A stretch of 22,565 bases of DNA from a virus, in the IMG/VR virus record IMGVR_UViG_3300042260_000661, positions 1-22,565 of that record; one strand, written 5' to 3'. A program made the position numbers and the translations under genes. This document shows positions 3,799 to 17,603 of this stretch, piece after piece. The notes under the pieces were generated by a model, which was not told the DNA's origin, searched no databases, and was given only the letters and a program-made list of their open reading frames with translations. Position 1 is the first letter of the stretch, and each line of letters opens with the position of its first letter.

Positions 3799-3812
3799 CA
3801 AACCCATTTTGA
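3795..3812 (+). pseudogene. Five-codon 5' remnant of the pyrophosphohydrolase gene
   Basis: ATG ACA AAC CCA TTT TGA encodes MTNPF then stop. It overlaps the upstream stop codon in the ATGA manner used by nearly every gene of this operon. The pyrophosphohydrolase gene beyond the endonuclease begins MNPFRDQ. The shared NPF (AACCCATTT against AATCCATTT) suggests that the endonuclease gene entered just after codon 5 and left the old start behind, while the target gene obtained a new start. The match is only a few codons long, so chance is not excluded. Confidence 0.5.
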
Positions 3813-4429
3813 TGATAAATAAGTGTGTGATTTACTTGTACATTAAAACTCATCGAACTACAGGGTTAAAATATCTAGGAAAAACTTCTGCAGAAGACCC
3901 ATACTCCTATCCTGGATCTGGAAAAAGATGGAAAGCACATCTAGAAAAACATGGCTACAATTTTGATACAGAAATATTACTAGAAAGCGATGATCCCAGT
4001 AAAATAAAAGAAGCAGGATTGTATTACAGTAAGGCGTGGAATGTCGTTGAAGATATTACATGGGCGAATCTCAAACCAGAATCGGGAGACGGCGGACCAT
4101 TCGTACATACCGAAGAAGCTAAAGAAAAGATAGGAAAAGCGTCTAAAGGAAAACCTAGTCTATATAAAGGAATGACTTACGAAGAAATTCAAAAAGACAA
4201 GGATAAGGCGGTTAAAAGAAAAGAAAATCATAGTATATGGATGAAAGAAAACAATCCATATCGCGGAAAACAACATTCAGAGGAAGTTAAGAAAAAGATG
4301 AAAGAATCCGCATCTAAAAGACTAGAGTTAAGCGAAGAAGAAAGAAAACAGAGCTGGGGACACTTAAAAGGGAAGCCTTGGTCTGAAGCACGTAAATTAG
4401 CACAAGCAAATAGAAAAAAGGAAAAATAA
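3812..4429 (+). CDS. GIY-YIG homing endonuclease with NUMOD3 repeats
   Basis: A 205-aa putative mobile endonuclease related in style to the Seg proteins of T4-like phages. The N-terminal nuclease half shows the GIY-YIG variant IYLYIKT (residues 7-13) and KYLGKTS (20-26), then YPGSGKRWKAHLEKHG. The C-terminal half is Lys-rich and holds NUMOD3-like DNA-binding repeats: TEEAKEKIGKASKGKP (about 100-115) and NPYRGKQHSEEVKKKM (about 150-165). ATG 3812 is preferred to TTG 3809. It is the only gene in bases 1-4932 flanked by gaps (14 bases and 1 base) instead of overlaps, it is A-rich compared with its neighbours, and it sits between a remnant start and the rest of the pyrophosphohydrolase gene. All this fits recent insertion. 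Cleavage activity is inferred from family. Confidence 0.82.
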   Translation: MINKCVIYLYIKTHRTTGLKYLGKTSAEDPYSYPGSGKRWKAHLEKHGYNFDTEILLESDDPSKIKEAGLYYSKAWNVVEDITWANLKPESGDGGPFVHTEEAKEKIGKASKGKPSLYKGMTYEEIQKDKDKAVKRKENHSIWMKENNPYRGKQHSEEVKKKMKESASKRLELSEEERKQSWGHLKGKPWSEARKLAQANRKKEK

Positions 4430-15501: not shown

Positions 15502-15930
15502 ATGACATGGTTGTTTGAAGGACAAGTAATTGATACCTTACCCGATGACTGTATAGGTTTTGTTTATCTCATTACAAATACAGTTACGGGTCGTAAGTAC
15601 GTGGGTAAAAAACTTGCTAAGTTCTCCAAAACAACCTACAAAGTCGTTAAACAAAAAAACGGCACCAAAAAACGTAAAAAAATTAAATCTAAAATCGACA
15701 GCGACTGGCAAACATACTATGGCTCCAATGACGAACTCAAAAAAGACGTCGAAACATTAGGCTCAGACAAATTTATCCGTGAAATATTACATTACTGCAA
15801 TAGTAAGGCACAAACATCATACTTAGAAGCGAAAGAACAATTTGACCGTAAGGTATTGGAAACAACCGACTATTACAATGGACAGATCAGCGTTCGCGTA
15901 CACGGCTCCCACATAATAAACAAATTTTAA
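15502..15930 (+). CDS. GIY-YIG-fold endonuclease-like protein
   Basis: A 142-aa protein with the GIY-YIG core near the N-terminus: GFVYLITN (19-26) and RKYVGKK (31-37). A Lys-rich insertion follows (KQKNGTKKRKKIKSK), then DSDWQTYYGSNDELKKDVETLG and a region with Glu (LEAKEQFD, possible metal ligand). It lacks NUMOD repeats. The compact shape and the link with recombination genes suggest a resident nuclease of T4-like phages rather than a recently inserted homing endonuclease; this is inference. It begins 8 bases after the Hc1-like gene. It is the last gene before the 527-base gene-free stretch. Confidence 0.78.
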   Translation: MTWLFEGQVIDTLPDDCIGFVYLITNTVTGRKYVGKKLAKFSKTTYKVVKQKNGTKKRKKIKSKIDSDWQTYYGSNDELKKDVETLGSDKFIREILHYCNSKAQTSYLEAKEQFDRKVLETTDYYNGQISVRVHGSHIINKF

Positions 15931-15957
15931 ATCGGCAACCGCCTAATAATTTTTAAA

Positions 15958-16327
15958 CTACTGAAAAAGCTCGCACCGGCAAGATGATTAGGTGCCTGAA
16001 TCCGTTCTGATGTGAGACGGTAGGAAATTCCGAGCAGTAGCGGAGACATGATTGCCACTACCCTGATGATGTCAGGACGAAGCGTTAGACTTGAAAAACG
16101 CTGGCATGTGTATGTACAGTCAAAAAGAGTAGGCACTGCTGAGTCATTGCAACCTACAAGAATCTCTGCGTTCATCTATCAGCAATGAGATTTTGCGTTA
16201 TATAGGACTACGTAAAAGGGTACAGCGTAACCGCCCTTGCTAGTAATAGTTGTAGCGATAGATTACGATAATGGGCCTCAGACATGTTCTGTTTTCATTA
16301 TTTCACTTTTGCCCTTAACAGGGCAAA
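15958..16327 (+). ncRNA. Candidate large structured non-coding RNA
   Basis: No frame here looks like a protein, yet complementary blocks are packed end to end. CUACU/AGUAG (15958-15962 with 16036-16040) is stacked on GCUCG/CGAGC (15969-15973 with 16031-16035) and encloses CACC/GGUG and CCGU/ACGG hairpins. Then come CCUGA/UCAGG (16062-16076), AGCGUU/AACGCU (16081-16102), GUAGG/CCUAC (16129-16157), AAUCUC...UGC/GCA...GAGAUU (16161-16192), UUGCGUU/AGCGUAA (16193-16230), AAGGG/CCCUU (16216-16238), GUAAU/AUUAC (16243-16266), AUAAUG/CAUUAU (16268-16301) with inner CAGA/UCUG, and UUUGCCC/GGGCAAA (16308-16327). The two helices around 16193-16238 interlock like a pseudoknot. It is not a tRNA, and I cannot match it to tmRNA, RNase P RNA or a group I intron. 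Phage giant RNAs such as GOLLD or ROOL are possible, unproven relatives. Strand and ends are uncertain; co-transcription behind gp46 favours (+). Confidence 0.55.
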
Positions 16328-16343
16328 GTACGATTGCAAAACC

Positions 16344-16372
16344 TTGACATGTATCTCCCTTTAAACTATTCT
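16344..16372 (+). promoter_or_regulatory. Sigma70-like promoter TTGACA-17-TATTCT
   Basis: TTGACA (16344-16349) is a perfect -35 box, followed after 17 bases by TATTCT (16367-16372), which is TATAAT with two mismatches. It points rightward into two hairpins and then antisense to the gp51-position and gp26 genes. It could drive a short RNA starting near 16379. It is the best host-type promoter I see in the window, but it is judged by eye only. Confidence 0.45.
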
Positions 16373-16398
16373 ATTAGAACAGTTAAGATAGAATTAAA

Positions 16399-16458
16399 AG
16401 AATTAAGTTTTATTAGCGTAAGCGTGTAAAACATAATTCTAGTTGTTCTTGAACAACT
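16399..16458 (+). other. Two adjacent hairpins before the convergent gene end
   Basis: Hairpin one has outer arms AGAATTA/TAATTCT (16399-16405 with 16434-16440) and inner arms GTTTTA/TAAAAC (16407-16412 with 16427-16432), separated by an A-A mismatch. Its tip is GC-GUAA-GC, a GNRA-type tetraloop in the (+) sense only. Hairpin two is AGTTGTT/AACAACT (16441-16447 with 16452-16458), touching the last base of the (-) gene. Neither has a clean U-tract, so they may be the end of a (+) small RNA or a weak terminator for the (-) genes. Confidence 0.5.
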
Positions 16459-16700
16459 TAAAACTGACCCTGTGTTAAAGTATCTTTGGGCTTAACACCA
16501 CGATCTAAACTTATCTTATCTTTAAGTATCTTCACGAATATTAAACGCTCGTCATTACTTAGATGCCATAACTGATCATAACTCTGTCCTGAGTATATTG
16601 CCAGTGTTGCTATGTCTTCGATTATGGCTTTTGTCTCTTTTTCAAGACCTGCTAACAACTTCATAATTTCAGGCCCTGACTTCAGAGACAAAAGCCTCAT
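16458..16700 (-). CDS. Small protein in gp51 position, likely also made as frameshift extension of gp26-like protein
   Basis: An 80-aa helical protein starting MRLLSLKSGPEIMKLLAGLEKETK and containing YDQLWHLSNDERLIFVKILKDK. It overlaps the gp26-like gene by ATGA. In T4, gene 51 (a baseplate hub assembly factor, 249 aa) follows gene 26, so position suggests a functional counterpart, but it is much shorter and I see no clear sequence match. Six bases before the ATG ends a U-UUU-UUC slippery heptamer; a -1 shift there enters exactly this frame. It could therefore be made both as a separate protein and as the C-terminal part of a fusion of about 362 aa. It has the size and helical nature of the second half of tail assembly chaperones. 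Confidence 0.65.
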   Translation of the reverse strand: MRLLSLKSGPEIMKLLAGLEKETKAIIEDIATLAIYSGQSYDQLWHLSNDERLIFVKILKDKISLDRGVKPKDTLTQGQF

Positions 16701-16709
16701 GCGAAAAAA
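16671..16709 (-). promoter_or_regulatory. Candidate programmed -1 ribosomal frameshift site
   Basis: On the minus strand the end of the gp26-like frame reads ACU UUU UUC GCA UGA. The heptamer U UUU UUC (16709-16703) has the X XXY YYZ form in the right phase. After a 5-base spacer (GCAUG), AGGCUUU (16697-16691) can pair with AGGGCCU (16677-16671) through 7 pairs, two of them G-U, with a 13-base loop. A -1 slip bypasses the UGA and continues CGC AUG AGG into the downstream frame. Confidence 0.6.
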
Positions 16710-17545
16710 GTTGTAGGATTCAGGTCAATTGTTGAAGTATATACTTTGTTGCATTTCTGACACTGTACATTGAACTCTTTACTGACACCAACTTTATTAG
16801 TGTTCATAATAGAAGTTTCCAACTTTGTGTATTCTGGCTTGCTGAGATCACGTACCCATTCCTCTATCATTTTTCTATCTGAAACCACAGAGCCGTCGGG
16901 TAACAGTACAGTATCTATACTAGACGATACAACATTAATGCTTTCGTTGGTCAGCGTCTCGTAGCTTTTAGTTAACAGCGCCACTTTTTCTCGTTCAGGC
17001 AAATTTTGTTGTTCTGCAAGCTGCAATCCTCGAATCTGTTCGTATTGTACCCAGTTGAGACTTAATAGATGTTTTACCGTGATTGGTTTAGTGAATATTT
17101 TAATTCCAGATTCGTGTTCTATAGGCGGGTTATCTTCTAACACTGTGATGCTGCCGATTAAGTGATTTAAATCTACACTGACTTCGTTGATTGCTTTTTC
17201 GTCGCAGTCACACTGAGTGGTTACATCTAGCTTGTCACCGTAGGTACAACGTTTAATAGCAACTAAAATTGCATCCAAGTCTATACTGGGCATGTTGATA
17301 GGATCGGTGATAGTGGGCGCACAACTGCTGATCAACTGCGTTAGTGCATTGCCGTTTAACAAACTGTCTGCATTTTTTAACAGTAATTCATCTTTGGCAG
17401 TTAAAGGATACACCGGTATTTCTCCCATGTCATTTAATTCTGCGGGTTTAACATCGTAGAATTTTCCCATACTGGGTAATTTAATGTATATACCTGGCTT
17501 CCTAAAGAAGGCTTTCAAAGGATTTGATAGGTGCTGATTTTCCAT
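16697..17545 (-). CDS. 26: gp26-like baseplate hub / tail assembly protein (T4_baseplate family)
   Basis: A 282-aa protein with the marks of the T4 gp26-type family. Residues 21-30 are IKLPSMGKFY, followed by EIPVYPLTAKDELLLKNADSLLNGNALTQLISSC and a cysteine set that can bind zinc: C112 and C114 (TQCDCDE), and C262 and C265 (VQCQKC). The family takes part in hub assembly in T4 (gp26, about 208 aa). TTG 17557 is possible, but ATG 17545 has GGAG 7 bases upstream and is chosen. The last codons contain a slippery heptamer and the stop overlaps the next gene, so part of the product may extend into it. It lies back to back with the tape measure gene, as expected for a tail assembly chaperone. Confidence 0.8.
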   Translation of the reverse strand: MENQHLSNPLKAFFRKPGIYIKLPSMGKFYDVKPAELNDMGEIPVYPLTAKDELLLKNADSLLNGNALTQLISSCAPTITDPINMPSIDLDAILVAIKRCTYGDKLDVTTQCDCDEKAINEVSVDLNHLIGSITVLEDNPPIEHESGIKIFTKPITVKHLLSLNWVQYEQIRGLQLAEQQNLPEREKVALLTKSYETLTNESINVVSSSIDTVLLPDGSVVSDRKMIEEWVRDLSKPEYTKLETSIMNTNKVGVSKEFNVQCQKCNKVYTSTIDLNPTTFFA

Positions 17546-17585
17546 AGTTTTCTCCAACTAAATATTGATATGAATATTATATTCT

Positions 17586-17593
17586 TATTTATG
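17586..17593 (-). promoter_or_regulatory. Candidate late promoter CATAAATA
   Basis: On the minus strand CATAAATA differs from the T4 late consensus TATAAATA only in its first base. It ends 40 bases before the gp26-like ATG and would drive the gp26/gp51-position genes. The same octamer stands before the portal gene, which strengthens both. The divergent spacer to the tape measure gene is only 58 bases. Confidence 0.5.
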
Positions 17594-17603
17594 TGCGTAT
17601 TTA

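Follow-up and report, generated by a model that had tools for sequence, protein, structure and literature searches.

The window analysed here is the whole 22,565-nucleotide (nt) stretch of IMG/VR virus record IMGVR_UViG_3300042260_000661, a virus contig with a T4-type gene set (gp47-like, gp46-like, a histone-like small protein, a SegE GIY-YIG nuclease, a gp26-like baseplate protein and the tape measure). The SegE gene stops at 15930 and the next gene, on the minus strand, ends at 16458. A preliminary description of the sequence had called the block between them (15931-16457) gene-free and a candidate large structured RNA. The block is free of genes, its lone long open reading frame (ORF) not being conserved, and it is near certain that a structured RNA occupies 15957-16357 (Table 1). 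In 93 full-length relatives the conserved stretch runs from ACTACTG (15957) through about CCTTGACATGTATC (16357), the 3' end being approximate. When the whole window was searched with cmscan, Polynucleobacter-1 (RF01718) was the sole Rfam family above threshold. Its conserved core GCAGUAGCGGAGAC is present in the window, and hairpins P2, P5 and P6 of this region covary. The Polynucleobacter-1 motif was published from Burkholderiales and fresh water or estuary samples, with the ratings "probably" for RNA, "probably" for cis-regulatory and "ambiguous" for riboswitch (Weinberg, 2010; PMC2864571); no other paper naming it was found in the literature searched. The published motif spans 144 of the ~400 conserved bases, i.e., the 5' third only; no Rfam family matches the remaining two thirds or the architecture as a whole. 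Given the RF01718 match, the earlier suggestion of a possible new class was too strong and is half right: the first third is a known family, and the architecture and the relatives of the remainder are new.

Table 1. Coordinates of the RNA, its helices and adjoining features in the window
Feature	Position	Strand	Evidence
Structured noncoding RNA, full length ~400 nt, extended form of Polynucleobacter-1	15957-16357	+	Conservation in 93 full-length relatives, covariation
Rfam RF01718 (Polynucleobacter-1) match	15968-16111	+	57.3 bits (gathering cut-off 37), E 4.9e-10, model positions 1-141 (full length)
P1, pseudoknot helix, CUACUG 15958-15963 with CAGUAG 16035-16040 (P5 loop)	15958-16040	+	100% paired, 50 relatives
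P2, hairpin, 15973-15977/15991-15995	15973-15995	+	100% paired, 5/5 pairs covary
P5, hairpin, 16028-16032/16041-16045, loop displays CAGUAG	16028-16045	+	98.4% paired, 3/5 pairs covary
P6, stacked stem, 16046-16049/16108-16111 and 16053-16057/16102-16106	16046-16111	+	With enclosed hairpins: 96-100% paired, 13/18 pairs covary
Two hairpins inside P6	16062-16066/16072-16076 and 16082-16085/16098-16101	+	Counted within P6 pairs
P7, pseudoknot, hairpin loop 16088-16091 with 16118-16121	16088-16121	+	4/4 pairs covary
P8, hairpin, 16129-16133/16153-16157	16129-16157	+	100% paired in phage and bacterial forms, 4/5 pairs covary
P9, hairpin, 16159-16166/16187-16194	16159-16194	+	8/8 pairs covary
P10, long-range pseudoknot, P9 loop 16174-16180 (AUCUAUC) with 16257-16263 (GAUAGAU)	16174-16263	+	Covariation
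Crossing helices, 16197-16201/16227-16231 and 16217-16221/16233-16237	16197-16237	+	Both supported by covariation
P12, 16208-16212/16251-16255	16208-16255	+	93.6-95.3% paired, 4/5 pairs covary
P15, hairpin	16307-16328	+	98.5% paired in phages, retained in bacterial forms
Twin element T1, GACATGT	16281-16287	+	Sequence match to T2
Twin element T2, GACATGT (same letters as T1)	16344-16350	+	Sequence match to T1
Two hairpins 3' of the RNA (16400-16439, 16442-16457), ahead of the convergent gene	16400-16457	+	Sequence; hairpins also in relatives
SegE-type GIY-YIG nuclease, upstream neighbour, outside the RNA	15502-15930	+	PF19835, E 3.8e-33
T4 gp26-like baseplate protein, downstream convergent neighbour, outside the RNA	16697-17557	-	PF12322 and phrog_150

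The relatives were gathered with two DNA patterns, one for the 5' core and one for the 3' core; the 14-base core pattern by itself returned mostly chance matches, which was cured by adding the flanking hairpin. For pair counts, 50 non-redundant phage RNAs among the 93 relatives were used. Between 15958 and 16328 the named structure has 87 pairs, grouped into 17 helices where the preliminary description had noticed "at least twelve", and it is 95.9% paired in these 50 RNAs, compared with only 34-44% for slid controls. Both sides have changed in 54 of the 87 pairs, and none of 500 shuffles reached the observed pairing or covariation score. A tree-aware covariation test, purpose-written in the style of R-scape and an approximation to it, placed its top scores on pairs of about nine helices, several of them beyond the Rfam model. 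Across a set of 34 phage, jumbo-phage and bacterial sequences the 3' two thirds are 92.3% paired, with covariation at 32 of 46 pairs. Covariation supports four pseudoknots: P1, which joins the 5' end to the P5 loop; P7, between the loop at 16088 and 16118; P10, from the P9 loop to 16257-16263; and the crossing helices at 16197-16237.

The preliminary description had set out three refuting tests, namely covariation in homologues, a conserved protein frame and folding energy against shuffled sequence. The first came out in favor of an RNA and the second found no such frame. The third was near neutral: the minimum free energy had only a small edge over shuffled controls, at z = -2.2 for the whole block (equalled by 2 of 100 shuffles) and z = -0.67 for the 401-nt core (25 of 100). 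Near-neutral folding energy can occur where pseudoknots go unmodelled. Since the energy signal is weak, it was set aside and covariation was relied on; the structure exceeds chance clearly by covariation and weakly by energy.

Some helices deserve comment beyond Table 1. The 5' strand of P1 falls outside the Rfam model, and one P1 pair has changed on both sides in 7 relatives (replacements CUACCG/CGGUAG and CUACGG/CCGUAG). Two competing partners had been proposed for AGUAG at 16036; the upstream one is P1, paired in 50 of 50 relatives, whereas CUAC at 16058 is not kept because most relatives have U or A at position 16061. The highest tree-aware score belongs to pair 16089/16120 in P7. In P10, 7/7 pairs covary in the phage and bacterial set and 6/7 in phages. 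The crossing helices surround the most conserved core AAAAGGGUACAGCGUAACCGCC and correspond to the interlocking helices predicted earlier at 16193-16230 and 16216-16238. The two hairpins at 16400-16457 lie outside the conserved RNA and, judged from their sequence, are probably terminator-like.

In about 90 contigs the phage RNA is flanked by the gp46 operon on one side and the gp26-like gene on the other. A search with the gp26-like protein, blind to the RNA, returned 10 contigs, and all 10 carry the RNA at this position, one copy being truncated by the end of its contig. The RNA is present, usually as a single copy, in 14 of 14 large phage contigs, which were chosen as RNA carriers. It lies in most phages on the same strand, 3-214 nt past the last operon gene, and at most phage loci no same-strand gene follows it before the convergent genes. 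In about 15 loci (e.g., L168, L148, L156, L187) SegE is replaced by an unrelated PDDEXK nuclease (PF24608), a non-homologous swap at the same position, and the RNA stays. In eight jumbo-phage contigs (records up to 382 kilobases) the 3' module is joined to another 5' domain and is placed elsewhere, beside other genes; all eight are recognized by R1, a covariance model built from the 3' module. In one 236-kilobase phage contig the module occurs twice; the second copy (L274; G012 92607-92812; 71.8 bits) is diverged and lies 3' of a nucleosidase-like ORF. With blastn, three family members found no match in 50,697 phage records, and one query found none in 72,556 plasmid records. The isolate phages PA5oct and Phosso, the nearest gp46 relatives checked, had no match to R1.

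Among Burkholderiales, R1 also found copies in 6 of 399 genomes, and among Pseudomonadota in 4 of 398, with two common to both sets. Several of these copies fall below the RF01718 cut-off; RF01718 misses the jumbo-phage forms as well as several bacterial copies. The 3' two thirds are a conserved module common to T4-like phages, jumbo phages and bacterial chromosomal copies, and the bacterial form of the 3' core was not found in viral contigs. Most bacterial copies are divergent from a DUF6641 gene (at least 7 loci), with integrases nearby. Four copies (L229, L231, L244, L246) lie near ZorD, type III restriction-modification (two loci) or a GajA-like gene, and these loci are possibly defence islands. 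DUF6641 was rejected as an obligate partner: a detectable RNA stands beside only 4 (or 5) of 13 DUF6641 genes, and DUF6641 is absent from 14 large phage contigs. The diverged copy L243 lies near two IS110-family transposases and an IS1380-like transposase. An IS110-type bridge RNA was considered and rejected, the other copies having no IS110 nearby.

A TAAATA motif occurs at a near-fixed position upstream of 8 of 8 bacterial RNAs examined (L222, L224, L225, L226, L231, L242, L244, L245). In 9 of 11 DUF6641 loci with enough flanking sequence it lies on the divergent strand 100-158 nt upstream of DUF6641 (expected ~0.02 per site); the bacterial loci share ancestry, so these counts overstate independence. 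Among DUF6641 loci L257-L269 some TAAATA motifs face other cargo and not the RNA (L259, L264, L265, L269). An element TGGACAACC, in some loci an inverted repeat GGTTGNNCAACC, stands upstream of TAAATA between DUF6641 and the RNA (L222, L224, L225, L231, L244, L245) and looks like an operator from its sequence. The phage TAAATA precedes 67 of 68 tape-measure genes, 66 of 81 gp26-like genes and none of 66 gp46 genes; directly upstream of the RNA it was found at 1 of 49 loci. Within the window, divergent TAAATA motifs at 17558-17603 between the gp26-like and tape-measure genes are probably back-to-back late promoters. T4 late promoters have the consensus TATAAATA, which resembles TAAATA, and induction of the bacterial RNA by infection is therefore plausible.

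Two 7-9 nt segments, one on each side of the last hairpin P15, form a pair of twin elements, T1 and T2. The twin sequence varies by lineage (GTGTCAAGT, AGGATAAT, AGATAGA, GGCGAAAG and others), and the two members agree within nearly every RNA. Over 25 lineages the longest match averages 6.84, compared with 4.95 ± 0.20 when permuted, and none of the permutations reached the observed value; windows taken from other parts of the RNA as controls lack a comparable within-RNA match. Five bacterial copies found later gave 7.2 vs. 5.3 permuted (41 of 5000 permutations as high). Loci with the pattern include L041, L165, L194, L216, L224-L226, L231, L242-L244 and L274, and weakly L245; in L274, the second phage copy, ACGAAAT can be read twice. 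The simplest reading is that the twins would be two binding sites for one partner. We know of no described phage RNA with such a bivalent display of matched recognition elements.

What might the RNA do? A stand-alone, trans-acting RNA is likely, because no same-strand gene follows it in most phages, the neighboring nuclease is swapped, the jumbo-phage copies are placed elsewhere and the bacterial copies are divergent from their neighbor. We consider it fairly probable that the ~400-nt phage noncoding RNA acts in trans as a scaffold, whose variable 5' domain and twin elements, T1 and T2 at the last hairpin, would serve to bind a partner specific to each lineage during infection; that partner may be two copies of one protein or RNA. 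Several points weigh against this proposal. The RNA is known here from its sequence and covariation. In bacteria and in phages of types B and C a same-strand gene often lies downstream of it, and cis action is possible there; a search of the 260 nt upstream gave no significant complement to the twin elements. The motif was also scored as probably cis-regulatory in 2010 (Weinberg, 2010; PMC2864571).

The same rating favors a 3' untranslated or cis element of the gp47-gp46-SegE operon, serving mRNA protection, processing or transcription end. Such an element would fit the same-strand position closely behind the operon, the terminator-like hairpins that follow, and the lack of a late-promoter motif immediately before the RNA, noted at 48 of 49 phage loci. 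It accounts poorly for the exchange of the upstream gene for an unrelated nuclease and for the jumbo-phage and bacterial placements, and ~400 nt with four pseudoknots far exceeds the needs of mRNA protection; we regard it as unlikely. Slightly more doubtful still is that the phage copy is a mimic or antidote countering the bacterial RNA of an infection-induced, DUF6641-linked mobile defence or satellite element. The divergent DUF6641 genes, the nearby integrases and defence genes, the shared TAAATA motif and the absence of DUF6641 from the large phage contigs are in line with it. However, most DUF6641 genes lack a detectable RNA, integrase islands often carry defence genes anyway, the promoter motif is not independent evidence given the common ancestry of the loci, and the phage copies are syntenic across diverged phages, with no recent capture.

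An RNA-only oligomer or cage like GOLLD and ROOL appears improbable. The RNA is phage-borne and ornate with a conserved 3' and a variable 5' region, as in GOLLD (PMC12286853), and the window twins include the palindrome ACAUGU, but it is smaller, has neither tRNA neighbors nor a matching Rfam model for such RNAs, and the twins of other lineages are not self-complementary. The adjoining SegE-type homing-like nuclease could suggest a mobile ribozyme or intron, remnant or active, moved by the GIY-YIG protein; this is very improbable for an RNA that keeps a fixed intergenic position in about 90 contigs, interrupts nothing and is still there when the nuclease is missing or of the PDDEXK type. A diverged protein gene can practically be dismissed, since the 82-amino-acid minus-strand frame at 15927-16175, the only long ORF in the block, is open in only 10 of 50 relatives, with many indels that are not multiples of three.

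An orphan 141-nt Rfam motif, "probably" RNA in 2010, now has a ~400-nt full architecture with four covarying pseudoknots, and the new model finds relatives that Rfam misses in jumbo phages and bacterial chromosomes. The RNA is conserved in a widespread uncultured phage group (T4-like and jumbo), with near-fixed synteny in the T4-like phages, and the twin elements and the infection-type promoter motif in bacteria are candidate sites of function. To our knowledge, phage RNAs that are large, structured and of unknown function are rare. We tentatively raise a broader scheme, a superfamily with Polynucleobacter-1 as one 5' variant, distributed over lytic T4-like and jumbo phages and bacterial mobile elements, with matched, lineage-specific twin elements and with bacterial copies that carry a T4-late-type promoter motif. 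In that scheme the late sigma factor of the infecting phage itself may turn on the bacterial copies.

Elsewhere in the window, four related small ORFs starting MNERI (854-1965) are apparent tandem duplicates, and a second GIY-YIG-like ORF (3809-4429), with short motifs repeated, is probably a homing endonuclease.

Among known RNAs, DUF805b (RF02914) was rejected: the string AAAAGAGUAGGCA resembles its 3' end at 16.2 bits (threshold 35.6), most likely by chance. GOLLD and ROOL had been mentioned in the preliminary description as known ornate phage RNAs, and cmscan gave no match to either. ROOL is phage-borne, with several pseudoknots and no known protein partner (PMC12286853); the window RNA is likewise phage-borne with several pseudoknots, but is ~400 nt instead of 659 nt and lies outside any transfer RNA (tRNA) island, tRNA genes being absent from the whole 22.5-kilobase window. 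GOLLD has a conserved 3' region and a variable 5' region (PMC12286853), a layout that the RNA shares when compared by sequence, at about half the length of GOLLD and with no tRNA neighbors. The closest relative is Polynucleobacter-1. Its model ends at 141 nt; missing from it are the 5' strand of the P1 pseudoknot and the 3' two thirds, which hold further pseudoknots. The cis-regulatory placement, a 2010 proposal and no part of the RF01718 model, differs from what is seen here, where convergent genes come next downstream, both in the window and in most of the relatives from phages. The whole Polynucleobacter-1 model is nevertheless matched, and the core GCAGUAGCGGAGAC and the freshwater and Burkholderiales setting are common to both.
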